A stretch of 64,000 bases of DNA from Burkholderiales bacterium (GTDB taxonomy: Bacteria > Pseudomonadota > Gammaproteobacteria > Burkholderiales > Burkholderiaceae_C): assembly GCA_017307855.1 (NCBI GenBank), contig JAFKGD010000002.1:248001-312000 (forward strand), read 5' to 3'. The stretch's first letter is position 1, and each line of letters opens with the position of its first letter. The notes beneath the pieces are model-generated. The model ran no database searches. It was given only the letters and a program-made list of their open reading frames with translations, and was not told the origin of the DNA. Shown piece after piece: positions 1 through 37,735 of the stretch. Both the position numbers and the translations under genes were made by a program.

Positions 1-360
1 CGGCTGAAGGGCCTCCTCCAACCGCTTCAGCAGGCCGTTATCCGCCGTCAGGATGTCTGCCAGAGCCTTGTTCGTACGCGGCCAATCCAGTGGAGCAGAC
101 TTGTCCTCCATCACGCAGAGCGACCAGAATGGGTCGTCTTTGAGCAAGGTCCAGATCTGTTCGGCAATGGAGAACGTGTGCACGTCCCAGCCTTCCTGGT
201 GGAGCTTGGCCACCCAGGCAGGCGTTTGCCGCTTGACCTCGAGGATCTGCTCTGGAGGAAAGACGAGGTAGTAAATCGGCTCGAAGCTCGCATGACCGAG
301 CTCACGCCCGTGCCGGATGCGCTCGCGCAATTCGTCGAAATCAGCTTTGAGTGAGGACAT
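1..360 (-). CDS. brxB: BrxB (DUF1788), BREX phage-defence component, partial
   Basis: This is the N-terminal 120 codons; the rest lies beyond the left window edge. The product has the DUF1788 signature, with the stretch PIYYLVFPPEQILEVKR at about residues 28-44 followed by a segment reading W(D)VHTFSIAEQIW. BrxB is a core component of BREX systems and is not an enzyme by known motifs. The ATG at 360 lies inside brxA (20-bp overlap), so the two are translationally coupled. The order brxE-brxA-brxB is typical of BREX type 6. If so, brxC, pglX, pglZ and others should follow leftward outside this window. Confidence 0.85.
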   Translation of the reverse strand, partial: MSSLKADFDELRERIRHGRELGHASFEPIYYLVFPPEQILEVKRQTPAWVAKLHQEGWDVHTFSIAEQIWTLLKDDPFWSLCVMEDKSAPLDWPRTNKALADILTADNGLLKRLEEALQP

Positions 361-1135
361 CGCAGAGCGCCTCCATGTCTTGTTGTTTCCAACTGATTCG
401 AATCACATCACCCGCCGCCTGGACGATGAGTAATCCTTTCAGCGAAAGCCGCTTGATCTCTTCCAGCACGTCTTCACGCGCCAGGCCAAACAGATGCCAG
501 TCTTCGTGCGTCAGCAGAGCGTTGTCACCGACGCCGGAAGAGTGCAGCTCGTAGGCAAGGTAAGCGGCCACTGATGGTGAGATGCGGAACGGCAGAATGC
601 GACGGCTCGAACGCAATCCTCGTTCAAGCATTCCGTAGTCGGCACAACATCCGGTCAGATAGGCGGAGACACGCCGAACCGTAGTTTCGGACCAGTGCTT
701 GACCGTCTTGCCATCGTCAATGCCCCGCTCGACAAAGGTGCGAGCGTCGTCATTGGTGACATGCGTGTAACCACCGGCATACCGCGTCCAGTACACGTGT
801 CGCACGAAGTCGCCGAGAATCGGGTTCGCTCGGCTCGTAAACACGAGCATGAGCTGCGTCAGGTCAGCGGTTGAAATCGTTGCGGACAGTCGCTTGAGGT
901 GTGCGGCTGGTGCGCCACCGGCCACCAAGTAGCGCGGAGCAAAGCATTCGACGACGATGTTGCGAAGCCGGCGTGCGGTGACGGTGGGGAATCGCCCCGA
1001 TTCCAGCGCGGCCTGATGTAACTGGTTCGCCGACATGCCGGGCGACCACAGGTCGAGCAGCGTCTTGGTCTCATTGACGAGTCCAAGGCCTGCTTGTAAC
1101 TGTGTCGTATAGGGCTTGTTGTCGGCCACGATCAA
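341..1135 (-). CDS. brxA: BrxA (DUF1819), BREX component
   Basis: The product is 264 aa, the usual size for DUF1819/BrxA, a small DNA-binding helical protein of BREX systems. The probable start is the TTG at 1135, whose TTGA overlaps the brxE stop by 4 bp; a GTG two codons in (1129) is an alternative. The protein is mostly helical, without membrane segments or catalytic motifs, and contains the conserved ARRLRNIVVECFAPRYL segment near residue 56. It sits between brxE and brxB with overlaps on both sides, so it belongs to one polycistronic unit. The role (assembly or DNA binding in the BREX complex) is known for the family, not shown here. Confidence 0.82.
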   Translation of the reverse strand: MIVADNKPYTTQLQAGLGLVNETKTLLDLWSPGMSANQLHQAALESGRFPTVTARRLRNIVVECFAPRYLVAGGAPAAHLKRLSATISTADLTQLMLVFTSRANPILGDFVRHVYWTRYAGGYTHVTNDDARTFVERGIDDGKTVKHWSETTVRRVSAYLTGCCADYGMLERGLRSSRRILPFRISPSVAAYLAYELHSSGVGDNALLTHEDWHLFGLAREDVLEEIKRLSLKGLLIVQAAGDVIRISWKQQDMEALCDVLTQS

Positions 1136-1632
1136 CCCACCAGATACGGATACGTTTTGGCGTTCTGCTTGAACGCCGACAGGTAGGCTGCCGCAATGGC
1201 CTTCAGGGTGTCAGTGGAATCGATATCCTTGATGCTGCCGACTGCTGTAGGTCCCACACCAGGCGTGCCGCTCGTCGCGGCCAAGCGCTTCAACGCATCC
1301 ATTGCAGCCTCTTTGCTTTGTGCAACCTGGCTGGCGAGTTCCTCGCCCCCACCGCCTTGCACCATCGCGTGCAGGTCTTGTTCGATCTCTTCCGGCAAAC
1401 GGAATAGGTGGTAGCTGCCGACGCTCAAATGCTCATCGTGCAATCGTCTAGCTGCCTCCAGCACACCGTGGTACTGAGCGAGCCGGGAAGTTTTGGAGAA
1501 GACAGGCTCCAGGAAGAGCCTGCTTGACGCTTCATAAAACGCCGTTGGCCACCAAGCGCATTGAGCACGCTCACCAAGGAAGCCGACGATCAACCTCATT
1601 TGCAGCAATGTCGATAGGTAGGATTCCTTCAT
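1132..1632 (-). CDS. brxE: BrxE-like BREX accessory protein
   Basis: This 166-aa protein starts MKESYLSTLLQMRLIVGFLG and contains AQCAWWPTAFYEASSRLFLE, which I recognise as the BrxE family seen at the head of BREX type 6 loci. No catalytic motif is visible and its biochemical role is unknown. An in-frame extension reaches about 1677, but the ATG at 1632 has a purine-rich Shine-Dalgarno stretch (AGAGAG) and better matches family length. It lies 62 bp downstream of the WYL regulator on the same strand and overlaps brxA by 4 bp. Assignment to BREX-6 rests on this gene and the brxA-brxB order. Confidence 0.72.
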   Translation of the reverse strand: MKESYLSTLLQMRLIVGFLGERAQCAWWPTAFYEASSRLFLEPVFSKTSRLAQYHGVLEAARRLHDEHLSVGSYHLFRLPEEIEQDLHAMVQGGGGEELASQVAQSKEAAMDALKRLAATSGTPGVGPTAVGSIKDIDSTDTLKAIAAAYLSAFKQNAKTYPYLVG

Positions 1633-1694
1633 CTCATCTCTCTTTGTTCGTTGGTTCTGCCGGCGCGATCGACGCAAGCAGAGGTATCCGTTGT

Positions 1695-2609
1695 TCAGTC
1701 AAATTCCGCCCCTGCGCCAGCGGTATCGGGTGCCGAATACCCTGGAGCCAACACGGCATTGCGCACCCCATAGATGGCGAGATGATCCTTCAACCAGAGC
1801 CGGTACTCATGGCCGCGCAGGCTGTGGTCGGGGGAGCAGTCCACACTCCACTTGCGCAGGATGTATCCGGCCGTGGCGGCACGCAGCTTCATCCGCAGCA
1901 CGCCGTCGCGCATGCTGTAGTCCATTTCCGTGATCTCCGGCCGGGGTTGATCCGGATGCGGAACCAACTCCAGCTCGACGATTCGGGTCCACTGAATGTC
2001 TTGATCGCTAAGCTCGTGGGGCGCCACTGGCTGACCCTTGAGCACGACGGGGCGTCTGATCCGGGTGATGACGAAATCTCGGAACTCCTGGGACTTCCGG
2101 TCGAAGGCGCGAACGTGCCAGCGAAGGCCGTTATCGATCAGCGCGAAAGGGACGATCTCCCGCTCAGTGCGGCCACTGGAGATGGAGTGATACTCAATGC
2201 CGAGCGGACAGCCCTGGTGGATCGCCCGGGTCACGTTCGCCAGCACATCCAGATCCGGATGCGTGAGACGTGACGGGCTCTCGCTGGCCACCCACGCCTT
2301 AAGCCGCATTGGCTCGCCATCGCCAAAGCCCTGGGTCAGCCACGACAGCACCCGCTCCGGGGGGAAGTCGAAGACCGACTGAAAGCTCGGCCCAAGGACG
2401 TAGGACTTGCCCTTGGAGTCGTAGTCGATGTTGCCGGGGGCCAATTCCTTGTAAAGCGCAAGATCCCTCGATGCCGCGGCGGACTGGATGCCGAAGCGCG
2501 TCACCAAGTCCTGGCGGCGTATCTCCCCGATGAAGCGCACGCGCAACTCCACGAACGCGAGCCGGTCGCGTTGTGGCTGGGTTAGATCTGCAAGCTGTTC
2601 GTTCGACAT
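1695..2609 (-). CDS. brxR: WYL-domain transcriptional regulator (BrxR-like)
   Basis: The product is 304 aa. The N-terminal winged helix (about residues 10-70) has a recognition-helix region reading RFGIQSAAASRDLALYKE. A central WYL domain spans about 120-200 (IEYHSISSGRTEREIVPFAL, then NGLRWHVRAFD), and a C-terminal WCX-like domain follows. This architecture matches BrxR/CapW-type repressors that sit at the front of BREX and other defence operons and respond to an unidentified ligand through WYL. It is the first gene of the leftward BREX operon and is divergent from jetA, so it is well placed to control both. See the two operator-like elements at 2639-2652 and 2719-2735. Confidence 0.85.
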   Translation of the reverse strand: MSNEQLADLTQPQRDRLAFVELRVRFIGEIRRQDLVTRFGIQSAAASRDLALYKELAPGNIDYDSKGKSYVLGPSFQSVFDFPPERVLSWLTQGFGDGEPMRLKAWVASESPSRLTHPDLDVLANVTRAIHQGCPLGIEYHSISSGRTEREIVPFALIDNGLRWHVRAFDRKSQEFRDFVITRIRRPVVLKGQPVAPHELSDQDIQWTRIVELELVPHPDQPRPEITEMDYSMRDGVLRMKLRAATAGYILRKWSVDCSPDHSLRGHEYRLWLKDHLAIYGVRNAVLAPGYSAPDTAGAGAEFD

Positions 2610-2638
2610 CCTGGCTAGCTCGTTCGGGTTAGCGAATG

Positions 2639-2652
2639 CTTGTGTGGGTTAT
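2639..2652. promoter_or_regulatory. Operator-like element, WYL/BREX side
   Basis: CTTGTG followed by TGGGTTAT resembles, in inverted orientation, the dyad at 2719-2735 (whose complement reads CTTGTGGTTATCACAAC). It lies just downstream of the predicted -10 of the WYL/BREX promoter, at the expected transcription start, a position suited to repression. The match is imperfect (a 2-base insertion and a degenerate right half). It is a candidate only. Confidence 0.4.
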
Positions 2653-2659
2653 TGCGGAA

Positions 2660-2688
2660 AGTATATTGTCTGCTCTAGAATCTGTCTA
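2660..2688 (-). promoter_or_regulatory. Predicted sigma-70 promoter of the WYL regulator/BREX operon
   Basis: Read on the minus strand, TAGACA (2688-2683) and TATACT (2665-2660) are separated by exactly 17 bp. This is close to the -35/-10 consensus. It would start transcription near 2653, giving a leader of about 45 nt before the regulator's ATG at 2609. Confidence 0.55.
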
Positions 2689-2698
2689 TCAGTTGTTT

Positions 2699-2728
2699 TT
2701 GATGCGTGTATGCGTCGTGTTGTGATAA
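2699..2728 (+). promoter_or_regulatory. Predicted promoter of the jetABCD operon
   Basis: TTGATG (2699-2704) and TGATAA (2723-2728) are separated by 18 bp on the plus strand. The -10 lies inside the TTGTG-N5-CACAA dyad, so a bound repressor would block it. The implied start near 2735 leaves about 30 nt of leader, with GGAG at 2755-2758 before jetA. The motif match is moderate. Confidence 0.42.
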
Positions 2729-2735
2729 CCACAAG
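2719..2735. promoter_or_regulatory. Operator-like inverted repeat TTGTG-N5-CACAA upstream of jetA
   Basis: TTGTG (2720-2724) and CACAA (2730-2734) form a perfect 5-bp dyad with spacer ATAAC. It overlaps the predicted jet -10 element. A related, more degenerate copy lies at 2639-2652 by the divergent promoter. The encoded WYL regulator is the obvious candidate binder; this is inference. Confidence 0.5.
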
Positions 2736-2765
2736 GCGGGCGAGACGCGCACTTGGAGCACAGGA

Positions 2766-4226
2766 GTGAAAGCAGACAAAGCCATCGCGACGTACCGGCG
2801 CATGCGGGCGCAGCCGCTGTGGCGCCTGCTTGCCTCGAACACTGGACCTACCGTCATTGGCCTGCTTCAGGCCCATCTTTACGAGAGTGAGCGAAGTCTT
2901 CCTGCCTCCATTTTTCACGAACGAATCGCAAGAGATCTGGAAGAGCTACGCGCCCAAGGCGAAGACTTCCCCCAAACGGCACAAGCGTACGTCGCCAGCT
3001 GGCTTGCCGATGGGTACCTGGAGCGACGCTTCCCGGCTGGGGCTTCAGAGGAGGAATATGAACTCTCCACGGCCGCCGTCGAAGCCATTCGATTTGTCTC
3101 TGGCCTGGAGCAGCCGCACTCAGCCGCAACCGAAAGCCGCCTGACGCTTGTTATCGAGGCACTAGCCCGGCTTGCCGAGGACACCGACACCGACAAATTC
3201 CGTCGCATAGACCGGCTCATGGCCGAGCAAGCCCGCATCGATAAGGAGATAGACGCCATCCAGAAGGGGCAGATGCGCGTGCTGCCCCACGCAACGGCGC
3301 TGGAGCGCACGCGGGAGATCATCACGTTGGCTGATGATCTTGCAGGTGATTTCCGACGCGTCCGCGATCAGTTCGACCAGCTCAATCGAGATCTCCGTGA
3401 ACGCATCATGGACAACGATGGCAATCGGGGGGATGTGCTGGATTCACTGTTCGCCGGAATCGACCTGATTTCAGAGAGCGACGCCGGAAGGACTTTCTCC
3501 GCTTTCTGGCGATTGCTTACGGACCCAGAACAGGCCGCTACGCTTGATCAGGCCCTTGATAGCGTCATGTCGCGGGAGTTCGTGGGGCAGCTCGAAGCCA
3601 AGGAGCGACGATTCCTTCTTCGGCTGACGCGGACCCTTCTCGAGCAGGGCGGCATGGTTCACGAGGTGCTCCAGACCTTCGCGCGCAGCCTGAAGCACTT
3701 CGTCCAGAGTCGTGAATACCTCGAGCAACGCCGACTCAATCACCTTCTGAAAGACGCTCAGCGAGCAGCACTCGCCCTGAAGGACGAAGTCAGGGCCACA
3801 GAAACCCTCCAGTACACGCTTGAGCTCACGAGCAGCCGTTTGCGCTCCTTGTCTCAATGGGTGCTGTACGACCCCTCCCTACAAGCTTTGCCCGGCCAAA
3901 TGGCGGAAGGGGATGCCCCGCCAATCGACCTGGAGTCCGTCAGCGAACTGGTCGCCCAGTCCGAGATCGACTTCCGAACATTGAAGGCCAACGTGCTGGC
4001 GGTCCTGGAGCAACGGTCCCAGGCATCCATCGCTGACGTGCTGGAGCAGTTCCCCGCTGCACAGGGTTTGGGCAGCGTCGTCGGCCTGCTTGCATTGGGC
4101 AGTCGGCATGGTTTCAAAGCCGACCATAGCGAAACCGTAGGCTGGGTTGGAGGCGACGACGAGCGTCGTAGCGCCCGAATTCCAAAGATCTTCTTTTTGA
4201 GGGAGCGGGCCAATGAACTGGTCTGA
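2766..4226 (+). CDS. jetA: Wadjet subunit JetA (DUF3375, kleisin-like)
   Basis: The product is about 486 aa, starting at the GTG at 2766 (VKADKAIATYRRMRAQPLW) with GGAG 7 nt upstream. The same frame is open back to 2706, but that would place coding sequence over the promoter and operator. DUF3375 is the MukF/kleisin-like subunit that bridges the JetC SMC heads in type I Wadjet, the condensin-like system that extrudes and cleaves closed circular plasmid DNA. It is highly helical, with a winged-helix-like N-terminus and long helices around residues 140-200. Its end overlaps jetB by 14 bp. Confidence 0.9.
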   Translation: MKADKAIATYRRMRAQPLWRLLASNTGPTVIGLLQAHLYESERSLPASIFHERIARDLEELRAQGEDFPQTAQAYVASWLADGYLERRFPAGASEEEYELSTAAVEAIRFVSGLEQPHSAATESRLTLVIEALARLAEDTDTDKFRRIDRLMAEQARIDKEIDAIQKGQMRVLPHATALERTREIITLADDLAGDFRRVRDQFDQLNRDLRERIMDNDGNRGDVLDSLFAGIDLISESDAGRTFSAFWRLLTDPEQAATLDQALDSVMSREFVGQLEAKERRFLLRLTRTLLEQGGMVHEVLQTFARSLKHFVQSREYLEQRRLNHLLKDAQRAALALKDEVRATETLQYTLELTSSRLRSLSQWVLYDPSLQALPGQMAEGDAPPIDLESVSELVAQSEIDFRTLKANVLAVLEQRSQASIADVLEQFPAAQGLGSVVGLLALGSRHGFKADHSETVGWVGGDDERRSARIPKIFFLRERANELV

Positions 4227-4920
4227 GAACGACGAAGCGGCAATGCCAGCCGAAGCACAAGCGCCAGATGCTTCGCAGGCATCTGCTAACACCCTTTTCA
4301 TGGGTGACAGCGGCGAGTTGGCGCTGGATACCCGGCGCGCCCTGGTGCAGCTACTTGCGGGACCTTCGCTCGACGGACGTCGACATCCAAAGCTCTGGCC
4401 GATATTGGTGCGAGACGAAGCGGTGATACGTCGGCGCCTTGCCGAACTGTTTCTCGAACTGGTCATCGACCGGGACGTACAAGTTGCCTTCACCCGTCAG
4501 GCTGATACCGGCGACCTTGAAGTGCCACTCCTGCTGCGTCGCGCGCAGCTGACCTTCATTGACTCCATTCTGCTGCTTCACCTTCGCCAGCGATTGACCC
4601 AAGCGGACTCGCAGGGCGATCGTGCCGTGGTGTCGACTGACGAGATCATGGAGTTTCTTACCCTCTATGAGCGTGCCTCCAACACCGACCGCGCAGGGTT
4701 CGTGAAACGTGTTCATGCATCCATCGAGAAGATCAAGAAGCACAGCATCCTCCAGAAAATTCGCTCGAGTGAAGATCGTTTCGAGATTTCGCCAACGCTG
4801 AAGCTCCTCTTCTCTGCAGAAGAAATACAAGCCCTGACCCACTTGTATCAGCGCATGGCCGCCGGTGAGACGCCAGCGCAACTGGCTCAGACTGAGTCCG
4901 ATGAGGAGGCCGACCAATGA
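4213..4920 (+). CDS. jetB: Wadjet subunit JetB (DUF4194, KITE/MukE-like)
   Basis: This 235-aa DUF4194 protein is the MukE-like KITE subunit of Wadjet that binds JetA. Its middle carries HPKLWPILVRDEAVIRRRLA and, further on, a winged-helix region (DEIMEFLTLYERASNTDRAGF). It starts inside the end of jetA (14-bp overlap) and its stop overlaps the jetC ATG (ATGA), so translation is coupled. The acidic C-terminus (ESDEEADQ) is typical. There is no enzymatic motif. Confidence 0.9.
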   Translation: MNWSENDEAAMPAEAQAPDASQASANTLFMGDSGELALDTRRALVQLLAGPSLDGRRHPKLWPILVRDEAVIRRRLAELFLELVIDRDVQVAFTRQADTGDLEVPLLLRRAQLTFIDSILLLHLRQRLTQADSQGDRAVVSTDEIMEFLTLYERASNTDRAGFVKRVHASIEKIKKHSILQKIRSSEDRFEISPTLKLLFSAEEIQALTHLYQRMAAGETPAQLAQTESDEEADQ

Positions 4921-7900
4921 TCTCGGAACCCCAAACCGCGTCCTTGTTCGCCCGGGAGCAATTCCGGATGACTCGCCTGCAGGTTTACAACTGGGGCACT
5001 TTTTCTGACCTGCATGACATACCGATCAGCGAACGAGGCTTTCTGTTTGTCGGTCGATCAGGGGCTGGGAAATCGACGCTTCTCGACGCTTTTTCGGCGT
5101 TGCTGGTGCCACCTCGCTGGATTGACTTCAACGCTGCCGCGCGGGAGGCTGACCGCAGTGGCCGTGACCGAAACCTCGTCACCTACGTACGTGGGGCATG
5201 GGCCGAACAGAAGGATGGAGAGTCGGGTGAGATCGCCACCCGCTACTTGCGCTCGGGGACAACGTGGTCTGCCCTGGCACTGACCTACCAGAACGCATTG
5301 GGCCAGTCTGTGGTGCTGGTTCAGGTGTTCTGGCTTCGCGGCAATGCGAATGGAAGCACCGACGTCAAACGCCACTACCTTGTCCTGGAGCGGGCCTTTG
5401 ACCTGCGCGAGCTGGAGGACTTCGGTCAATCCAACTTCGACATCCGAAAGCTCAAGCAGTCTTTCCCCGAGGCGTTCGCTCGCGACGAGTTTCGTCCCTA
5501 TTGCGAACGATTCTGCCGCCTGCTCGGTATCGAGAGCGAAATGGCGTTGCGTTTGCTGCACAAAACCCAGTCGGCCAAGAATCTCGGCGACCTCAATACC
5601 TTCCTGCGCGACTTCATGCTCGACAAGCCCGAGACCTTCGAGGTGGCGGATCGCTTGGTCAGCGAATTTGGTGAACTCAATGCTGCCCACCAGGCGGTAG
5701 TGACAGCTCGCGAGCAGGTTCAAACGCTCGCGCCAGCGCGGGAGCAGTATCAGCGCAGAGATTCGTTGATGCTGCAACGCAATGGGCTGGATGAGCTTCG
5801 GCTGGGCGTTGATGGCTACCGCGAAACCCGCCGCATTGAACTCCTCAAGCAGCATGTCGAGTCCCTGGAGGTGCAAGCCAGCGGCTCGGAAGGTGAAGTA
5901 AGTCGACGTCAGAGCATCCTGGATAACCACACCACAACCTTGCGCAATCTGGAGCGACAGCACCGTGAAGCAGGCGGTGATCAGATCGAGCAATGGGAAG
6001 CAGAGAAATCTGGTCTGGAGGGCCAGCGCACGGATCGCCTGCGCAAACGCGGCCAGGCTGAAGATGCGTGCAAGAAGCTTGGCTGGAGCCTCCCGGATTC
6101 GCCTCAGGCCTTCGCTGAACTGTTGGGAAACGCGCGGCAGGAAGTCGAAAACTGGGAGCAGCGCAGCAACGAGAACCGCGAAGAACAGTTCCGCTTGGCA
6201 GGTCAAAAGAAAGACGCTGAGACGGCATTTTCGCAAGCGGTGAAGGAGGTGCAGGCACTCCAGCGCCAGCCATCGAGCATTCCTGCCGATATGCTCGAAA
6301 TGCGCCGAGACATCGCCGCAGCTATTGGGATATCAGAATCGGCTCTGCCCTTCGTCGGCGAACTCATTGAGGTGAAGTCTGACGAGGCCGAGTGGCAAGG
6401 TGCCATCGAGCGCGTACTGCACGGATTTGCGCTCTCACTCTTGGTGGACGAACGCCAGTATTCGGCGCTGGCCAATTACATCAACAACACCCATCTTGGG
6501 CAGCGTCTGGTGTACTACCGAACTGGCCGCTCGGAGACCTGGCAGGCGAAGCCCATCGGCGCTAACTCGCTCGTCCTGAAGCTGAACGTCAAGGAGGGTA
6601 CGTATGCCGATTGGCTGCAGGCCGAGCTACGGCAACGATTCGATTACGCGTGCGTCGACTCCATTCAGTCGTTCAGGAGCGCTGATCGAGCCATCACCCG
6701 TGAGGGCCAGGTCAAGCACAGCAAAACCCGGCACGAGAAAGACGACCGGAGAAGTGTCGGCGACCGACGAAACTGGGTGCTCGGGTTCGATAACCGCGAG
6801 AAGCTTGGGCTCTTTCAAGCACAGGCCCAGGAGCTGGCTGCGACGATTACGCGCCTCGGGGGAGAAATCGAAACCCTCGCCGACCAAGACAAGAATCGTG
6901 CGACCCGAGCGATTCAGTGCCAAACCTTGGTGAATCTCCAGTGGCAGGAAATTGATGTAGTACCGTTGCTTGACCGCATTTCCACCATCGAACAACAGAT
7001 TCGCGAAGCGCGGGAGGGCAATACAGCCCTACTGCAAATCAGTGAGCGGATCGACAAGCAAAAGAACTTGGTTGATCAAGCAGACAAGGACCTCCGAGAA
7101 GCCAAGGTCGCGCATGACTCAGTTCTCAAGCAGATCAACGACAGCACGCAGAAGCTTGAATCGCTCCTTCAAGATGCTTCCAGAGTTCCATTGACTCCCC
7201 ACCAGATCAAGGGGCTCGACGAACGATTCACCAAGCAGTCAGACGCGATCAGGCTCGAAAGCCTCGACAAGGTAGCAACCGCTGTTGAGAGAGGGCTCAA
7301 CACAGAAATCGGTGAGATCAAAGATGAGATCGGCGATTGCGAGAAGGAAATTGAAGCACGCTTTGCCGATTTCAAACGGCAGTGGCCAATGGATGCTGTG
7401 GACATGGACACGAGCCTAGCCAGCGCAGCGGACTTTTTCGCCAAGTTGGTTCGACTGGAAACGGATGGCCTGCCCGCCTATGAGCAGCGATTCTTCGAAC
7501 TGCTGCAGAACCAAAGCCACCAGAATCTGGCGGCACTGTCCACCTACCTGAACGATGCGCGCAAAGCCATCCTAGAGCGGATGGATCTGGTCAACGACAG
7601 TCTTGGCCAGGTGCCGTTCAACCAAAGCGCCAATCAACGTACCTATCTCCACATCGACGCCAGTGACCGGCAGCTTGTCGACGTCAAGGAGTTCAAGCAG
7701 GAGATCCAGCAGGCACTTAGCCATGCGTGGACGGAGGATCGCGAGTTTGCCGAGGCGCGGTTCCTGGCCCTGCGGCGACTTGTTGATCGACTCGCCAGTC
7801 AGGACCCCGAGCAGAAACGCTGGCGCGAGACTGTGCTCGACGTTCGACAGCATGTTGAGTTTATCGGACGGGAGATTGATGAAAGCGGCGTGGAGGTCGA

Positions 7901-8291
7901 AATTTACCGCAGCGGTGCTGGCAAATCAGGCGGTCAACGGCAGAAGCTGGCCACCACGTGCTTGGCCGCAGCCCTGCGGTATCAGCTGGGAGGGAACGAC
8001 CACGGCGTGCCGATGTATGCGCCCGTCGTGCTTGATGAAGCCTTCGACAAGGCCGACAACGAGTTCACCGCTTTGGCGATGAACATCTTTACCAATTTCG
8101 GATTTCAAATGGTGGTCGCTACGCCGCTGAAGTCCGTCATGACCCTCGAACCATTCATCGGTGGCGCCTGCTTCGTAGATATCAGCGACCGGCGGGTGTC
8201 AGGCGTCCTGTTGATCGAGTACGACGGTGACCGCCAGCGGTTGAAGCTGCCGGAGCACGCTCGAGAGGAGGCTAGCGTTGAAGCTTCCTGA
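4917..8291 (+). CDS. jetC: Wadjet SMC-like ATPase JetC
   Basis: The product is 1124 aa, the full length expected for a MukB-like Wadjet motor. Walker A is GRSGAGKST at residues 46-54; long coiled coils flank a hinge-like middle region (about 440-590). The ABC signature SGGQRQK is near residue 1004 and Walker B VVLDEAFDKAD near 1037, with the catalytic Glu present. All ATPase motifs are intact, so the motor should be functional. It loops DNA by extrusion and presents it to JetD. Short overlaps join it to jetB (4 bp) and jetD (14 bp). Confidence 0.93.
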   Translation: MISEPQTASLFAREQFRMTRLQVYNWGTFSDLHDIPISERGFLFVGRSGAGKSTLLDAFSALLVPPRWIDFNAAAREADRSGRDRNLVTYVRGAWAEQKDGESGEIATRYLRSGTTWSALALTYQNALGQSVVLVQVFWLRGNANGSTDVKRHYLVLERAFDLRELEDFGQSNFDIRKLKQSFPEAFARDEFRPYCERFCRLLGIESEMALRLLHKTQSAKNLGDLNTFLRDFMLDKPETFEVADRLVSEFGELNAAHQAVVTAREQVQTLAPAREQYQRRDSLMLQRNGLDELRLGVDGYRETRRIELLKQHVESLEVQASGSEGEVSRRQSILDNHTTTLRNLERQHREAGGDQIEQWEAEKSGLEGQRTDRLRKRGQAEDACKKLGWSLPDSPQAFAELLGNARQEVENWEQRSNENREEQFRLAGQKKDAETAFSQAVKEVQALQRQPSSIPADMLEMRRDIAAAIGISESALPFVGELIEVKSDEAEWQGAIERVLHGFALSLLVDERQYSALANYINNTHLGQRLVYYRTGRSETWQAKPIGANSLVLKLNVKEGTYADWLQAELRQRFDYACVDSIQSFRSADRAITREGQVKHSKTRHEKDDRRSVGDRRNWVLGFDNREKLGLFQAQAQELAATITRLGGEIETLADQDKNRATRAIQCQTLVNLQWQEIDVVPLLDRISTIEQQIREAREGNTALLQISERIDKQKNLVDQADKDLREAKVAHDSVLKQINDSTQKLESLLQDASRVPLTPHQIKGLDERFTKQSDAIRLESLDKVATAVERGLNTEIGEIKDEIGDCEKEIEARFADFKRQWPMDAVDMDTSLASAADFFAKLVRLETDGLPAYEQRFFELLQNQSHQNLAALSTYLNDARKAILERMDLVNDSLGQVPFNQSANQRTYLHIDASDRQLVDVKEFKQEIQQALSHAWTEDREFAEARFLALRRLVDRLASQDPEQKRWRETVLDVRQHVEFIGREIDESGVEVEIYRSGAGKSGGQRQKLATTCLAAALRYQLGGNDHGVPMYAPVVLDEAFDKADNEFTALAMNIFTNFGFQMVVATPLKSVMTLEPFIGGACFVDISDRRVSGVLLIEYDGDRQRLKLPEHAREEASVEAS

Positions 8292-9441
8292 AGATGTTTG
8301 GCAGTTTCTTGCCCGTCGCTTTCAGAGCAAACACCGCGAGTGGTTGATCGGTGATGCTGGCGAGAGCCAATGGCCGCTGGAAGTTCCGCTCGGCATACCG
8401 ACGGAACAGGCTGCGCTAAGGCAAGTCGACGGCGTTCGCGCTTGGGTGAGTGCATGGCAAGGCTGGCAAGGAGTCGGCACCCTGTCCTGGTGTGAGCGCC
8501 GGTGGAAAGCGCTTGGCGTCCAGCGACTGCCTGAGAAACTGGCGTTACGAGGCCCTGAAGATGTTGCCCTGTGGATTGGGGAATCCGCACGGTGGGTGCG
8601 TGCCCAGTCTCGCTATCAGACGCTCACTGCTCGCTGGCCGGTACTGGCGCAGCAGTTGCCGAGATATTTTGATGTCCTCGCTGACTACGGCGATGCCGAT
8701 TTTAGTCGGCTGGCAGAGATGCTGGATTGGATCAGTCTCAATCCGAAATCGAATCTCTACCCACGACAAATTCCGGTTGCCGGGGCCGACAGCAAGTGGC
8801 TGGATTCTAGAAAGGGCCTCATCTCTGACTTGGTTGCGACGCTCCAGGGTGACCCGACAGGAGAGCGCGACTTTTTTAGACGCTGCGGTTTGAGGGCACA
8901 GCCGCAGTTAATGCGCATGCGCGTTCTAGACCCAGAGCTGAGAGCCCGTTTGGGCGGTCTTGGCGATATCTCTGCTCCTTGTGAGGAGGTGGCAAGCATT
9001 GGCATACGACCAAAGAATGTCTTCGTTGTTGAGAACCTTCAAACCGGACTTGCCTTTGATGACCTGCCAGGGGCGGTTGTGATCATGCGATTGGGTTACG
9101 CGGTTGACGTTTTGGGACAGCTTCCATGGCTACAACAGGCGCAATGTATCTACTGGGGTGACATTGATACGCATGGCTTTTCCATTCTTAATCGAGCCAG
9201 AACATACATCCCTAGCCTGAAGACTGTGCTTATGGATGAGTCAACGCTGATGAGTCATCGTGATTTATGGGTCGAAGAGAAAGACCAGCACTCTTCCACA
9301 GAACTCCCACTACTCAAAAGTACCGAACAAAAGCTCTATCAGTCGATCAAGGGAAATGCCTGGGGTCAACAAGTCCGCCTCGAACAGGAGCGGATACGCT
9401 GGGATGTGGCGTGGAATGCCATACAGGCAAGTATTCGATGA
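8278..9441 (+). CDS. jetD: Wadjet nuclease JetD (DUF3322/DUF2220, Toprim)
   Basis: The product is 387 aa and starts with TTG at 8278 inside jetC. The N-terminal part is DUF3322. The C-terminal DUF2220 part is a topoisomerase VI/Spo11-like Toprim domain with its metal-binding residues: Glu in VVENLQT (residue about 252) and the Asp pair in GDIDTHG (294-300). JetD cuts the DNA once the JetABC motor has reeled in a circle. The catalytic residues are intact. Base composition is visibly AT-richer here than in the flanking ICE backbone, fitting independent acquisition of the island. Confidence 0.92.
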   Translation: MKLPEDVWQFLARRFQSKHREWLIGDAGESQWPLEVPLGIPTEQAALRQVDGVRAWVSAWQGWQGVGTLSWCERRWKALGVQRLPEKLALRGPEDVALWIGESARWVRAQSRYQTLTARWPVLAQQLPRYFDVLADYGDADFSRLAEMLDWISLNPKSNLYPRQIPVAGADSKWLDSRKGLISDLVATLQGDPTGERDFFRRCGLRAQPQLMRMRVLDPELRARLGGLGDISAPCEEVASIGIRPKNVFVVENLQTGLAFDDLPGAVVIMRLGYAVDVLGQLPWLQQAQCIYWGDIDTHGFSILNRARTYIPSLKTVLMDESTLMSHRDLWVEEKDQHSSTELPLLKSTEQKLYQSIKGNAWGQQVRLEQERIRWDVAWNAIQASIR

Positions 9442-9462
9442 CCCAGGATCGGGAGGTCAGTC

Positions 9463-9972
9463 GTGAATGGAAATCGATGGGACCAGCCGGGCGTGCCCCA
9501 CAAGGGATGGCACTGCGTGGATGTCGTCGATCTGCGGGCCGACGGCGAGCCGGCAGACGAAACCGATTACGCGACCTGCCAGATGTCCGGCAACGAGAAG
9601 ATCCGCTACGTCCACATCATGGAGCACCCGGATCTGGACGAGAATTTCGAAGTCGGGTGCGTCTGCGCCGAGAAGATGAGCGGCGACTACGAGGGGCCGA
9701 AGCGGCGTGAGGCCAAGCTGCGCAACCGCGCCGTCCGACGCACTCGATGGCTACAGCGCAAGTGGCGGGTCTCCGCCAAGGGCAACAGCTTTCTGAATGT
9801 CGACGGCCATAACCTCGGCGTGCATCCGACGAAGACAAAGCGATGGGGATATCGGATCGACAGCCGTTTCAGTGCAAAGACCTATGCCTCCAAGGACGAG
9901 GCGAAGCTGGCGCTGTTCGATGACTTCTGGGCGGCGACCCAGGATGACGAGCGGTTGTGGGCTAGCGACTGA
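9463..9972 (+). CDS. Unrecognised 169-aa protein, fifth gene of the jet operon
   Basis: It starts at the GTG at 9463 with GGAGG 6 nt upstream, only 21 bp after jetD, so it is probably co-transcribed with jetABCD. The N-terminal half has potential metal ligands (C in ATCQMS, H in RYVHIMEH, paired Cys in GCVCAEKM). The basic linker RREAKLRNRAVRRTRWLQRKW follows in the middle. The C-terminal part (GNSFLNVDGHNLGVHPTKTK and on) looks like a small beta-rich domain. I have seen similar small proteins scattered in mobile and defence regions but cannot name a function. Its base composition is more GC-rich than jetD, so it may not be an original part of the system. Confidence 0.7.
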   Translation: MNGNRWDQPGVPHKGWHCVDVVDLRADGEPADETDYATCQMSGNEKIRYVHIMEHPDLDENFEVGCVCAEKMSGDYEGPKRREAKLRNRAVRRTRWLQRKWRVSAKGNSFLNVDGHNLGVHPTKTKRWGYRIDSRFSAKTYASKDEAKLALFDDFWAATQDDERLWASD

Positions 9973-10167: not shown

Positions 10168-10533
10168 ATGGGACAGACCAACCGCCGCGCATCCGCCTGG
10201 CCTTCGCTGGCCGTGCTGCTGGCCGTGTCGCTCTCGGCCCTGCAACCCGCCATTGCCGAGGACACTCCGGAGCGTGAGCAGATCGCCGCGCTCGCCCGCC
10301 AGCTCAATCTGATCGACCGCCTCGCCGAGCACGCCGCCAGTACCGCTCCGCAGGAACGCGCCCGCTATCACTTCGACTACGCCCGACTGCGCGCAGACCT
10401 GAAGCGCGTTCGCGCCGGCCTGCAGGACTACCTCGTGCCCCAGCGCGCCCAGCCGCGCGATCCCGTCCCGCTGGCCGGCGATTACGTCCGCCGTGACCGC
10501 GCCGACGACGACGACGAGGAGCCATCGCCATGA
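10168..10533 (+). CDS. ICE conjugation protein, RAQPRD family (TIGR01690)
   Basis: This 121-aa exported protein has a signal peptide (about residues 10-31, ending AIAEDT), and the diagnostic RAQPRD motif is literally present near residue 91. It opens the first secretion block of the ICE; its function in mating-pair formation is not known in detail. It ends by overlapping the next gene by 4 bp. About 195 bp of gene-free sequence precedes it, and the operon promoter was not recognisable there. Confidence 0.92.
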   Translation: MGQTNRRASAWPSLAVLLAVSLSALQPAIAEDTPEREQIAALARQLNLIDRLAEHAASTAPQERARYHFDYARLRADLKRVRAGLQDYLVPQRAQPRDPVPLAGDYVRRDRADDDDEEPSP

Positions 10534-32612: not shown

Positions 32613-34463
32613 ATGCTCTCGCTGTTCCAGCGCAAAAGGGTGCCACCCACCGCCGGCACGCCGCCCACCTCCGCCATCGAAACTCCGAAAGGGTCGATGC
32701 GGCCGGAGTCGGCCGCATCGCTGCTGGCCACGCCGCGCCGGCAGAAACTGCTGGAACACATCTGGCAGCGCACATCGCTCTCGCGCCGGCAGTTCGCCAC
32801 GCTCTACCTCGCCCCACTGGAGCGCTACGCCGAGCTGGTCCAGCAGTTCCCGGCTTCCGAGAACCACCACCACGCCTATCCGGGCGGCATGCTGGACCAC
32901 GGCCTGGAGATCGTCGCCTATGCGCTGAAGCTGCGGCAGTCATACCTGCTGCCTGCGGGCGTCACGCCGGAGGCACAGGCGGCCCAGGCCGAAGCCTGGA
33001 CCGCAGGCACGGCCTACGCGGCCCTGCTGCACGACATCGGCAAGATTGCCGTCGATCTGCACGTCGAACATGCCGACGGCAGCGTCTGGCATCCCTGGCA
33101 CGGCCCGCTGCGAAAGCCCTACCGCTTCCGTTACCGAAAGGAGCGCGAGTACCGCCTGCACAGCGCCGCCACCGGGCTGCTCTACGCGCGCCTTCTCGAT
33201 CGGGACATCTTCGACTGGCTCAGCGGCTATCCCGACCTCTGGGCCGCGCTGCTGTACGTGCTGGCCGGCCAGTACGAGCACGCTGGCACGCTCGGCGAAC
33301 TGGTCGTGCAGGCCGACCAGGCATCGGTCGCCCAGGAACTCGGCGGCGATCCCAGCAAGGCGCTGGCGGCGCCCAAGCATGCGCTGCAACGCAAATTGCT
33401 CGACGGCTTGCGCTACCTGCTCAAGGAAGAATTCAAGTTGAACCAAGCCGGTCCGGCGGACGGTTGGCTGACCCAAGACGCTCTGTGGCTGGTGAGCAAG
33501 ACCGTCTCCGACAAGCTGCGCGCACATCTGCTGTCGCAGGGCATCGACGGCATCCCGGCGAGCAATACGGCGGTGTTCAACGTGCTGCAGGATCACGGCA
33601 TCGTGCAACCGACGCCGGATGGCAAGGCGATCTGGAAGGCTACCGTCACCAGCGACGCCGGCTGGTCGCACGCCTTCACCTTCCTGAAACTCTCGCCGGC
33701 CATGATCTGGGATGCCGCCGACCGGCTGGCGCCGTTCGCAGGCCGTGTGCAGGTCGAAGAGGAACAGGCGGAGCCGCCGCCGCTGGCGCCGGCGGTGGCC
33801 GATGGGCCGCGCGTGGAAGGCACCGAAGCTGCACCCGCGAGCACGGCGCCGATCGCATCCATAGCCACAGACACCGGCGTGGCCGCGCTGCTCGATCTGC
33901 TGGGCGACACCGCTCCACCCACAGCATCGGAGACCCCGACTTGCCCTGTTGCCGAGGCCGAGCCGGCCCCTTCGATCGTGCCCACGCCAGGAATGAGCCT
34001 CGCGCCTTCCCAGGATCGCGCGGAGCCCTCCGGGGCGCACTTCATGGCCTGGCTGCGCCAGAGCATCCAGACGCGCAAGCTCATCATCAACGACGCCAAG
34101 GCCCTGGTGCATACCGTCGCCGGTACGACCTACCTCGTCAGCCCCGGCGTGTTCCAGCGCTACGCGCAGGAGTACCTTCAAGTCGCCGCGCTGGCCAAGC
34201 AGGAGAAGCTGGAGGGGTGGCAGTGGGTACAGAAGCGCTTCGAGAAGCTGGGACAGCACCGCAAGCAGCCGAGCGGGCTGAACATCTGGACCTGCGAAGT
34301 CACGGGGCCGCGCAAGTCGCGCCGGCTGCACGGCTACCTGCTCGTCAGCCCGGATGCGCTGTTCCAGGAGACGCCGCCAGACAACCCATACCTGCGGCTC
34401 CTCAACGAGGCCGCAAAGCGCGATGATTCAGCCCTTGGGGGCAAGGACGACGATCAGGCGTAG
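32613..34463 (+). CDS. traI: MOBH-family relaxase (TraI_2 domain)
   Basis: The product is 616 aa. The N-terminal TraI_2 domain has a metal-binding His cluster HHHAYPGGMLDHGLE (about 85-99) and the HD motif LLHDIGK (about 138-144), the diagnostic signature of MOBH relaxases. A disordered, Pro/Ala-rich linker spans about 385-475, followed by a C-terminal DUF1528-like domain. It nicks oriT and leads the strand into the recipient. The start ATG 32613 follows the possible oriT. Confidence 0.92.
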   Translation: MLSLFQRKRVPPTAGTPPTSAIETPKGSMRPESAASLLATPRRQKLLEHIWQRTSLSRRQFATLYLAPLERYAELVQQFPASENHHHAYPGGMLDHGLEIVAYALKLRQSYLLPAGVTPEAQAAQAEAWTAGTAYAALLHDIGKIAVDLHVEHADGSVWHPWHGPLRKPYRFRYRKEREYRLHSAATGLLYARLLDRDIFDWLSGYPDLWAALLYVLAGQYEHAGTLGELVVQADQASVAQELGGDPSKALAAPKHALQRKLLDGLRYLLKEEFKLNQAGPADGWLTQDALWLVSKTVSDKLRAHLLSQGIDGIPASNTAVFNVLQDHGIVQPTPDGKAIWKATVTSDAGWSHAFTFLKLSPAMIWDAADRLAPFAGRVQVEEEQAEPPPLAPAVADGPRVEGTEAAPASTAPIASIATDTGVAALLDLLGDTAPPTASETPTCPVAEAEPAPSIVPTPGMSLAPSQDRAEPSGAHFMAWLRQSIQTRKLIINDAKALVHTVAGTTYLVSPGVFQRYAQEYLQVAALAKQEKLEGWQWVQKRFEKLGQHRKQPSGLNIWTCEVTGPRKSRRLHGYLLVSPDALFQETPPDNPYLRLLNEAAKRDDSALGGKDDDQA

Positions 34464-35569: not shown

Positions 35570-37423
35570 CTAGGCGACCCCGACTCGCGGCGGGGTCCAT
35601 TCGCTCTCCTTCACGGCTGTGCTCACTGCCATGACGAGCTTGTCGAGATTGCCGGCCGTCACGCCCTCCAGTGCCGAACGCCCCCGCAGCATCGAGCGCG
35701 GTTGCAGCAGTGCATGGTAGATCTGCCAGGGGTCCGCACCCCTGGTCAGCTTCAGGACGGACTGGATCAGCTCGTGCTTGAGTGGGTCGAGGTGCCAGTC
35801 CGGCACGCGCTGGCCGCGGTTGCCTACGTTCAACGCCAGCAAGTTGCCCGCCTTGATCTCGTAGCTGATCCACCTGCGGGACTTGCCCGCCATCTTGGCA
35901 AACGCCGCGACGGGAAGGTTGTGCGGCGCTTCGAAGACATCGAACAGTTCCATCCTCTCGCGCTGAATGTCCGAAGGCACCAGCGGCGCGGCTGATCGAG
36001 GGGTCGGAACCGCCGGCAGCCGATGTGCGGCGGCAGAAACCAACGGCATGGCGTCACCCGGCTTCGTCACCAGCAGGATTGGCGAAGCGCTAACCGGCGT
36101 GGAGGGTGCATTTGCGGTTTGCTCACTCGGGAATGCGGGCACGCCTTCCAGATGCACGGTGAGTGGCATGCTGGCCGCCTCGACCTGGTTCTGCTCGAAG
36201 AGGTCGAGCCGATCGGCCCAGTCCTGCATCATGCGGCGACGCTGCTCCACGTACTCGGCATGGTTGTAGGTCGCGCTGACCTTGTTGGGATCGACATGCG
36301 AGAGCTGTGCATCCACCCAGACCTTCGGGTAGCCGATCTCGTTGAGCGCAGTGGACATCGTGCCGCGGATACCGTGTCCGGTCAGGCGTTCCTGATAGCC
36401 CATGCGTTTGAGCGCACCATTGAGCGTGTTCTCGCTGATGCGCTTCTTCAAGTCGCTGTCGTGTCGGAACAGGTGGCGCTGGGCCGGCTTGAACTCATCC
36501 AGCAGGTGCCGGACGATCTCCATGGCCTGAATCGACAGCGGCACGATGTAGGGCGGGATGTCCTTTGGCTGCTGCCGCTTCTTGCGCATATCCAACTGGA
36601 GTTGCTTCACGACGTCGGGCGGGATGATCCACAGCCCGCGGTCCAGATCGAATTGATCCGGCGTCGCCTGTCGCAGCTCGCCGGTTCGCACGCCGGTCAG
36701 CAGCAATAGCCGCAGCCCGAGCTGGGTCTGCCGCCTGCCGCGATAGCTGCGCAGCCTCTGCAACAGCTTCGGCAGCTCGGCCATGCGCAGGAACGGGTTG
36801 TGGTTGACGGGTGGCAGCGGCAGCGCCACCACATCGAGATCGGAGGCAGGGTTCTGCTCCAGGCCCGGCACGATCACCAGCGCGTAGCGGAACAGTTGGT
36901 TGAACCACGTCCTGACTTTCTCGGCGACGGAGAGCGCCCTGCGCTTCTCGATCTTGGCGATCACCTCCAAGAGGTCGGGACGCTTGATCTCATAGATCGA
37001 CCGTTTGCCCAAGGTGGGCAGCACATCCTTGTCGAAGATGCGCGGAAGTATCGAGAGGGTCGTCTGCCGGCCTTCCTTGAGGGTGAGCCCGCGATGCTTG
37101 AGCCACTTGCGATACACCGCCTCGAAGGTGTTTTCGTCGGCGAGCCGGACAGCAGTGCGCTTCTGCTTGCGGTGTACGCGAGGATTGGTGCCTTTGGCCA
37201 GCAGGGCGCGCGCTTCGTCGCGCAGGCTGCGGGCCTCGCGAAGCGTCACCTCCGGGTAGGTGCCGAGCGACATCCGCTTCTGCTTGCCCGCCCAGTAGTA
37301 GCGGAAGTGCCAAGTCCTGCCCCCTGCAGCGGTGACGGCCAGGGAGAGGCCATCCAAGTCAGGGAGGGTGTATGCCTTGCCGGTTGCCTTGGCCTGTCGA
37401 ACGGCCAGGTCTGAGAGTGCCAT
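35570..37423 (-). CDS. ICE tyrosine integrase (P4/IntB13-like)
   Basis: The product is 617 aa. The N-terminal DUF4102/arm-binding part (MALSDLAVRQAKATGKAYTL) is followed by a core-binding domain and a catalytic domain with Arg in GVRTGELR (about 245), HxxR in GHGIRG (about 349) and nucleophile Tyr in SATYNHAEY (about 386). A C-terminal extension of some 200 residues, as in IntB13 of ICEclc, is present. ATG 37423 has AGGAG 7 nt upstream; an ATG at 37441 is possible. It lies next to tRNA-Gly, its likely target. Confidence 0.93.
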   Translation of the reverse strand: MALSDLAVRQAKATGKAYTLPDLDGLSLAVTAAGGRTWHFRYYWAGKQKRMSLGTYPEVTLREARSLRDEARALLAKGTNPRVHRKQKRTAVRLADENTFEAVYRKWLKHRGLTLKEGRQTTLSILPRIFDKDVLPTLGKRSIYEIKRPDLLEVIAKIEKRRALSVAEKVRTWFNQLFRYALVIVPGLEQNPASDLDVVALPLPPVNHNPFLRMAELPKLLQRLRSYRGRRQTQLGLRLLLLTGVRTGELRQATPDQFDLDRGLWIIPPDVVKQLQLDMRKKRQQPKDIPPYIVPLSIQAMEIVRHLLDEFKPAQRHLFRHDSDLKKRISENTLNGALKRMGYQERLTGHGIRGTMSTALNEIGYPKVWVDAQLSHVDPNKVSATYNHAEYVEQRRRMMQDWADRLDLFEQNQVEAASMPLTVHLEGVPAFPSEQTANAPSTPVSASPILLVTKPGDAMPLVSAAAHRLPAVPTPRSAAPLVPSDIQRERMELFDVFEAPHNLPVAAFAKMAGKSRRWISYEIKAGNLLALNVGNRGQRVPDWHLDPLKHELIQSVLKLTRGADPWQIYHALLQPRSMLRGRSALEGVTAGNLDKLVMAVSTAVKESEWTPPRVGVA

Positions 37424-37661: not shown

Positions 37662-37735
37662 TGGAGCGGGCGATGGGAATCGAACCCACGTCTTGAGCTT
37701 GGGAAGCTCAGGTCCTGCCATTGAACGACGCCCGC
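37662..37735 (-). tRNA. tRNA-Gly (anticodon CCC)
   Basis: This is a 74-nt cloverleaf read on the minus strand. The 7-bp acceptor stem GCGGGCG/CGCCCGC is perfect; the anticodon stem GAGC/GCTC holds loop TTCCCAA; the T-arm carries the loop TTCGATT. CCA is encoded. The 3' end points to the ICE, and its last bases (37662 upward) should form the attachment core. The gene looks intact after integration, as expected when the element restores the tRNA end. Confidence 0.95.

Follow-up and report, generated by a model that had tools for sequence, protein, structure and literature searches.

In the BrxR-controlled BREX island of pEFER, as in the locus studied here, a WYL repressor lies directly ahead of brxA, brxB and brxC, a DUF262 gene lies within the operon, and a palindromic operator with a five-base spacer is described upstream of the regulator (PMC9122601). 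CapW, the WYL repressor of CBASS, belongs to the same protein family, and its palindromes are reported to overlap the -10 (PMC9122588). RptR islands likewise carry one repressor ahead of changing defence genes, with the operator conserved alongside (PMC12255303). GI-Hotspot 8 resembles our site in its traD and RAQPRD borders and its variable defence content.

We analysed a window of 64,000 nucleotides. The first-pass annotation described a leftward BREX head (WYL, brxE, brxA, brxB) facing a complete jetABCD operon over 156 bp, and coordinates, PADLOC and NCBIfam agree with it. Our main reading, which we hold at a probability of roughly 60%, is that a BrxR-type repressor forms the constant hub of a defence cassette with two exchangeable arms, which would be jointly controlled; the cassette is here borne by an ICE. 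The features are as follows, from left to right.

L002:2031-4187, traD, left side of the hotspot (TIGR03754).
L004:2117-4219, brxL, the gene as far as which the BREX operon continues (PADLOC).
1..360, minus strand, brxB, continuing beyond the window (L003:13785-14360; PADLOC BrxB 1e-115).
341..1135, minus strand, brxA (PADLOC BrxA 6e-136).
1132..1677, minus strand, brxE-family gene, first of the left arm, 17 bp past the WYL stop (NF033447 1.9e-52).
1695..2609, minus strand, WYL regulator, BrxR/CapW kin, the hub (Pfam WYL; 7qfz E=8.4e-84; CapW and BrxR chains).
2610..2765, divergent control region, 156 bp, between the WYL gene and jetA.
2660..2688, minus strand, predicted WYL promoter TAGACA-17-TATACT, kept among relatives.
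2699..2726, plus strand, candidate outward (jet) promoter TTGATG-16-TGTGAT, weak, 8/12.
2720..2734, palindrome TTGTG-N5-CACAA (WYL strand TTGTGGTTATCACAA), probable WYL operator.
2766..4226, plus strand, jetA (PADLOC JetA 3e-206; Pfam DUF3375).
4213..4920, plus strand, jetB (PADLOC JetB 6e-98; Pfam).
4917..8291, plus strand, jetC (PADLOC JetC E=0).
8278..9441, plus strand, jetD (PADLOC JetD 3e-138; Pfam).
9463..9972, plus strand, orf169, companion gene of the right arm.
10168..10533, plus strand, RAQPRD gene of the ICE, right border of the hotspot (TIGR01690).

Extended leftward, the BREX operon was expected to contain brxC, pglX, pglZ, brxD and brxHI. The first three are present, but neither brxD nor brxHI was found among the genes of the extended operon, which has brxL instead. 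Leftward of the window lie brxC (PADLOC BrxC E=0), a UvrD-like helicase, pglX (as two ORFs that overlap at TAATG), a GmrSD gene, pglZ and brxL. The Type I set (brxA, brxB, brxC, pglX, pglZ, brxL) is thus all present by PADLOC, and the possibility that BREX is cut off right outside the window is excluded, as the operon is complete as far as brxL. The gene list of BREX Type 6 is brxE, brxD and brxHI. BrxE is described as exclusive to Type 6 (PMC12839542); that type is excluded here by brxL in place of brxD/brxHI and by a BrxE-family gene that scores above the NCBIfam BrxE-family cut-off but below the BREX-6 cut-off.

On the other side, jetA, jetB, jetC and jetD lie within one operon with open frames, which identifies a Wadjet system. 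The mechanical ORF of jetA runs from 2706; we adopted 2766, since the PADLOC JetA match opens at residue 22 of that ORF and AGGAG stands just ahead. The orf169 product had no match in PADLOC, Pfam or NCBIfam. Between the two arms, the WYL protein is akin to solved BrxR and CapW across wHTH, WYL and WCX, and by sequence belongs with them. Its residues 3-292 align to 7qfz, the best solved match, which we take to be the pEFER BrxR; Acinetobacter BrxR 7t8k matches at 1e-22.

The proposal that both systems sit back to back behind one WYL gene inside an ICE also held. TraD and TIGR03747 lie on the left side, and RAQPRD, TIGR03758, 03745, 03750 and 03752 on the right; TraI, an integrase and tRNA-Gly are further marks. 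A search for the left attachment repeat found no second exact copy of the 15 bases of the tRNA-Gly end over 88 kb leftward. The insertion site, between traD and the ICE's RAQPRD gene, is the published GI-Hotspot 8.

The same WYL/jetA junction occurs in other genomes: among 200 family and 399 order genomes, the WYL gene was divergently adjacent in four out of four genomes with JetA of at least 98% identity. Chance neighbours confined to the source genome are excluded by recurrence. Eleven of 18 JetA loci had no WYL match in the flanking stretch examined. Of 546 WYL relatives, 80 were kept. We compared 84 loci with this WYL gene, 83 of them distinct. Downstream (left) arms were BREX, restriction-modification, PsyrTA or helicase, with 11 unrecognised. 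Divergent (right) arms were Wadjet (19), an ADP-ribosylglycohydrolase gene (8), Tiamat-like (7), IetAS (6), CBASS (5), LysR only (12), orf169 only (4) and unrecognised (23); 19 of the 84 loci have orf169 upstream of the hub. The unrecognised right arms are partly annotated, 8 of the 10 proteins examined having come from them.

The BREX and Wadjet arrangement is real and recurs, but the pair is not the unit: both arms vary, with 16 pairings among the 47 loci where both are named. Wadjet was found opposite five recognised left-arm classes, and the nine BREX-I arms lay opposite Wadjet (5), a LysR gene (1) or unrecognised genes (3). The unit is the regulator hub, of which BREX with Wadjet is one case among many. 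Orientation is strict: every one of the 45 arms recognised as Wadjet, CBASS, IetAS, Tiamat-like or c24 diverges from the WYL gene, and all recognised left arms are co-directional with it. Could the WYL gene instead be part of Wadjet, with BREX inserted behind it? Three more WYL/jet pairs, in three genomes, are divergent with a distant WYL (33-35%); in two of these, L140 and L142, no recognised system comes after WYL. Against this, 65 of the 84 hub loci lack Wadjet in the flanking stretch examined (some short), which excludes WYL as a purely Wadjet part and makes this origin very improbable. We set aside a methyltransferase split between arms: 52 lay downstream and one upstream across 60 loci, a count that is partly circular because the queries came from downstream arms, and a motif search by an insensitive method gave 18 downstream versus one upstream.

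Within the WYL gene, the 5' end goes with the right arm and the 3' end with the left. None of 500 permutations reached this gradient, which marks arm exchange by recombination. The arms change where the conserved stretch ends. Both patterns would also be expected if that stretch were mainly a homologous anchor for island recombination and right-arm regulation incidental. A pure anchor, however, requires neither a palindrome with co-varying half-sites, nor fixed spacing, nor strict orientation, so we consider this quite improbable as a full account; anchor and regulatory roles are compatible.

The palindrome is conserved in sequence and place. Of 83 upstream regions, 70 carried its core where expected (69 at -119 to -122; 4.7 expected by chance) and 11 had no core at all in the scan; its distance to the WYL start was unchanged in 69. 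Across 47 non-redundant regions it carried 1.17 bits per column versus 0.30 beyond it, conservation dropping sharply at the palindrome, in the jet-proximal part of the gap. Its half-sites pair more than in shuffles (138 versus 123.1, reached in 2 of 2000), and they are set five bases apart, as in published BrxR sites and the pEFER site. Its uniqueness in the genome by itself proves nothing, since a reversed control pattern also matched once with two mismatches allowed. Upstream of the 18 less related WYL loci from the family search, nine had a palindrome, at a threshold under which the 2720-2734 site itself falls, being listed only at a lower one. In five of the nine, three of them from one genome (G105), it is TCATCA-N3-TGATGA, located around -95 to -98 and unlike our site. 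Conservation, spacing and paired half-sites make the palindrome at 2720-2734 a candidate operator, which a WYL dimer would bind.

Only 31 bp separate the end of the palindrome from jetA, and an ordinary jet promoter would therefore have to overlap it or read through it. A strong outward promoter is unsupported: outward promoter scores come to 7.74, barely above a null of 7.28 that shuffles the flank only. An ordinary BrxR, controlling its own promoter and left operon only, with Wadjet as a separately expressed neighbour in a crowded hotspot, would agree with that weakness and with the published repression by BrxR of its own operon. The palindrome may also serve WYL alone, because its spacing to the WYL promoter is constant whatever the right arm. 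CBASS, LysR and IetAS arms begin 230-400 bp from the WYL start, with room for their own promoters. Yet 31 bp is too short for a separate ordinary promoter, right arms invariably face outward, and conservation ends on the jet side, so we consider an ordinary BrxR unlikely. Joint control of both arms is likely, to judge from the conserved palindrome, though the outward promoter match is weak.

Under joint control by the hub, the WYL promoter would drive the WYL gene and left operon (here BREX Type I), and a WYL dimer on 2720-2734 would also keep the right operon, here jetABCD, from being transcribed outward, since jetA can ordinarily be transcribed only from a stretch that the palindrome occupies or closely follows. 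We infer binding, repression of both arms and a releasing signal. Release might follow when the WYL domain binds that signal, which could be single-stranded DNA if PafBC and DriD are a guide; arrival of the ICE in a cell without repressor might have the same effect. Both arms would then switch on together. A new arm would land beside the regulator because arms exchange through the WYL gene.

The wider result concerns the regulator's place as a hub: in related bacteria WYL and its probable switch remain fixed while the flanking immune systems are exchanged. This suggests how an island may gain a new immune system yet keep control of it. Joint control of anti-phage and anti-plasmid systems becomes testable on an element itself bound to enter new hosts, and uncharacterised right-slot genes are candidates for new defence genes. 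More tentatively, and at somewhat less than even odds, this BrxR lineage may be a dedicated platform with two slots. Its regulator would travel together with an operator that faces outward; the slot in operon with it would take DNA-marking systems such as BREX and restriction-modification, and the divergent slot non-marking ones such as Wadjet, CBASS, IetAS, Tiamat and an ADP-ribosylglycohydrolase gene. One signal would switch both slots, and recombination within the regulator gene would refill them.

The main text of the GI-Hotspot 8 publication does not mention WYL, BrxR, a regulator or transcription, and the hub, unlike that hotspot, also occurs in stretches without any ICE gene of the tested set. 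RptR, as described, lies outside the WYL proteins, has direct repeats as its binding sites and comes with one arm (PMC12255303). The reported pEFER half-sites differ (CTG-N5-CAG), and the operator is placed between promoter and gene, whereas here it lies on the far side (PMC9122601); the annotated genes of the 11-kb pEFER plasmid stretch include no Wadjet. CapW is described with one operon, whereas here two are opposed, and its partner CBASS is itself among the right arms of the hub (PMC9122588).

The 4.99-Mb genome places a BREX arm and a Wadjet arm on opposite sides of one BrxR-type WYL regulator gene (the hub), within mobile-element genes, as follows (window positions):

1695-2609, minus strand: WYL regulator, followed on the same strand by a brxE-family gene, brxA, and brxB
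2610-2765: 156-bp gap, with the palindrome TTGTG-N5-CACAA at 2720-2734
2766-9441, plus strand: jetA, jetB, jetC, and jetD, divergent from the WYL gene
32688-33341: TraI relaxase match
36251-36793: integrase match
37662-37735: tRNA-Gly

Beyond the window, the left arm continues with brxC, a UvrD-like helicase, pglX (two ORFs), a GmrSD-type gene (brxU), pglZ, and brxL. The first-pass annotation had expected brxC, pglX, pglZ, brxD, and brxHI at this place; the first three are present and the BREX is complete, but it is a Type I system with brxL, accompanied by extra genes. Farther left, at L002:4991-10536, capP, capH, and a CBASS operon (phospholipase, cyclase, and E1-E2 genes) form a third system in the same hotspot, with its own regulators. 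TIGR03747 and TraD lie left of CBASS, and orf169 (9463-9972), RAQPRD, and TIGR037xx genes lie right of jetD. With traD and RAQPRD as its borders, the site matches the published GI-Hotspot 8 (PMC12629846). The two pglX ORFs (L003:3546-7444) meet at a TAATG junction, and the pglX of L148 is a single 1307-aa frame. Since the C-terminal half of pglX is 98% identical in Dyella (L144) versus 60%–61% in L145, L146, and L147 (the last partial), while the adjoining brxU stays at 98%–99% in the three relatives whose stretch includes it, this specificity half seems to have been exchanged on its own.

The WYL/jet unit recurs with other left arms. WYL matches at E≤1e-40 occurred in 21 of 200 family genomes, this one included, and five of the 21 had at least 83% identity. 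Two of the four others at that level, G135 and G151, carry the divergent WYL/jetABCD unit with different left arms, namely GmrSD and type I restriction-modification genes in G135 and type III-like restriction genes in L082, which corresponds in place to G151. JetA searches across 200 family and 399 order genomes (E limits 1e-30 and 1e-100) gave 18 loci in total. The divergent WYL/jetA junction, proposed earlier as something to seek in other genomes, was found in all four genomes with JetA of at least 98% identity (this one, G135, G151, and G275). Three of the 18 loci, with JetA at 56%–59% identity, had a distant WYL gene (33%–35%) at the corresponding place, and the remaining 11 had no WYL match within the stretch examined, mostly 1.5 kb of flank. 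One of the three, L141:172-11506, repeats the two-armed layout under another regulator: its distant WYL gene (33%) has a jet operon (JetA 59%) on one side and, on the other, zorA, zorB, and zorC, which follow it on its own strand.

To the best 80 of 546 relatives found by matching a six-row WYL alignment to genome contigs, we added the window, G114, G133, and G135, giving 84 hub loci. G114 and L133, whose arms match, very probably represent a single genome, leaving 83 distinct loci; the hub is also near-identical among some other loci (e.g., L108 versus L109), and L055 comes from a MAG, so that its identity with the window could reflect contamination. System names come from one representative of each cluster, matched against PADLOC and Pfam. 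Among these 84 loci (best 80 of 546 plus four), right arms were Wadjet (19), LysR only (12), c24 (8), Tiamat-like (7, meaning a TmtA-like gene or its neighbor c36, with G114/L133 counted twice), IetAS (6), CBASS (5), orf169 only (4), and unrecognized (23). Alone, c36 had no PADLOC or Pfam match. Cluster c24 is a 646-aa protein with an ADP-ribosylglycohydrolase domain (PF03747), the lone gene of the right slot in 8 of the 84 loci (L059:1212-3152 and seven others); it had no PADLOC match and is a candidate new defense gene. The gene orf169 matched none of the families searched. It occurs upstream of the hub in 19 of 84 loci, with c24 as one of its neighbors, and by itself in the right slot of L066 and L078.

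Left arms of the 84 loci were PsyrTA (18 in all, nine with type I restriction), pglXI-type BREX, which we take to be BREX-III (17, plus five behind PsyrTA), type III-like restriction (15), BREX-I (9, of which the one in L069 is fragmented), a helicase with PADLOC matches to PDC-S37 and Hhe (7, four also carrying type I restriction), another BREX (4, plus one behind PsyrTA), type I restriction (3), and unrecognized (11, several on short contigs). Both arms could be named in 47 loci, in 16 pairings, or in 35 loci and 13 pairings with the LysR class excluded. Opposite the 19 Wadjet arms stood BREX-I (5), the helicase class (4), type I restriction (3), type III-like restriction (1), another BREX (1), and unrecognized genes (5). 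All 45 Wadjet, CBASS, c24, IetAS, and Tiamat-like arms are encoded opposite to the WYL gene, and all recognized left arms share its strand, as does one LysR hit. Left-type genes appeared on the right side in two loci (L090 at 4.2 kb and L106 at 2.6 kb). Genes of the tested ICE set (orf169 excluded) fell within the stretch examined in 6 of 84 loci, and the hub is not bound to this ICE.

For 47 loci, we took the identity of the 118 bp upstream of the WYL gene plus its first 300 coding bases, minus that of bases 601–885. This gradient was +0.032 for the 135 pairs that share a right arm but not a left one, and −0.043 for the 117 pairs that share a left arm but not a right one. None of 500 label permutations, which take no account of relatedness, reached this difference; exchange of arms by recombination within the WYL gene is the most direct interpretation. 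Among the 60 loci with 8 kb or more on each side, relatives of the downstream methyltransferases lay downstream in 52 and upstream in one (L106), a partly circular count as the queries came from downstream arms; an insensitive motif search gave 18 downstream and one upstream (L066). A division of labor between the arms is a lead that these counts suggest.

Of 83 usable regions, 70 had the core of TTGTG-GTTAT-CACAA in the slot −130 to −90 upstream of the WYL start, versus 4.7 expected, and 69 of these 70 had it at −119 to −122; two further regions carried it at −133 and −134. In exact form, the palindrome is unique in the genome, and allowing two mismatches gave no second site; because a reversed control also matched only once, this uniqueness is weak evidence. 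Across 47 non-redundant regions, bits per column were 1.17 for the palindrome, 1.06 for the WYL promoter, 1.02 for the leader, 0.60 for the stretch between, and 0.30 for the right-arm side. Half-site pairing was 138 versus 123.1 in shuffles and was reached in 2 of 2000, with relatedness ignored. Two repeats lie in the leader (2613-2660): an imperfect inverted one, CATTCG-N6-CGAACG, which is conserved, and a direct one of 14 bp with copies 20 bp apart. Less related WYL genes (50%–59% identical; L019, L020, L021, L031, and L032) have a different palindrome in common, TCATCA-N3-TGATGA, near −95 to −98, a pattern to be expected if the operator and the DNA-binding domain had changed in step.

Between the end of the palindrome and jetA there are 31 bp. 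A sigma-70 promoter up to its start point takes about 31 bp, and the ribosome-binding site must come after. Any ordinary jet promoter within the gap would therefore have to overlap the palindrome or read across it. This geometry is the main argument that Wadjet may be under WYL control; it fits jet but not arms that start farther off (CBASS, LysR). The candidate outward (jet) promoter is weak. In PMC9122588, CapW is reported to bind sites that overlap the −10 of the repressed promoter. WYL control of both arms is likely. Single-stranded DNA, which the WYL proteins PafBC and DriD are reported to bind (PMC11804915, PMC12340889), could be the signal for the hub regulator too, and entry into a repressor-free cell may release both arms.

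Among the titles and abstract openings covered, where subscription journals are mostly absent, none described a WYL gene acting as a hub for two opposed, exchangeable arms, and the main text of PMC12839542 makes no mention of Wadjet. Defense systems are reported on both sides of 29 of 347 BrxR homologues, and Wadjet is named among the co-localized systems (PMC9122601). The five-base spacer of the window palindrome equals that of published BrxR sites, and the pEFER site, read in its sequence, likewise has five bases. The parts are known from before; what appears new is their arrangement as a hub whose opposed arms can be exchanged.
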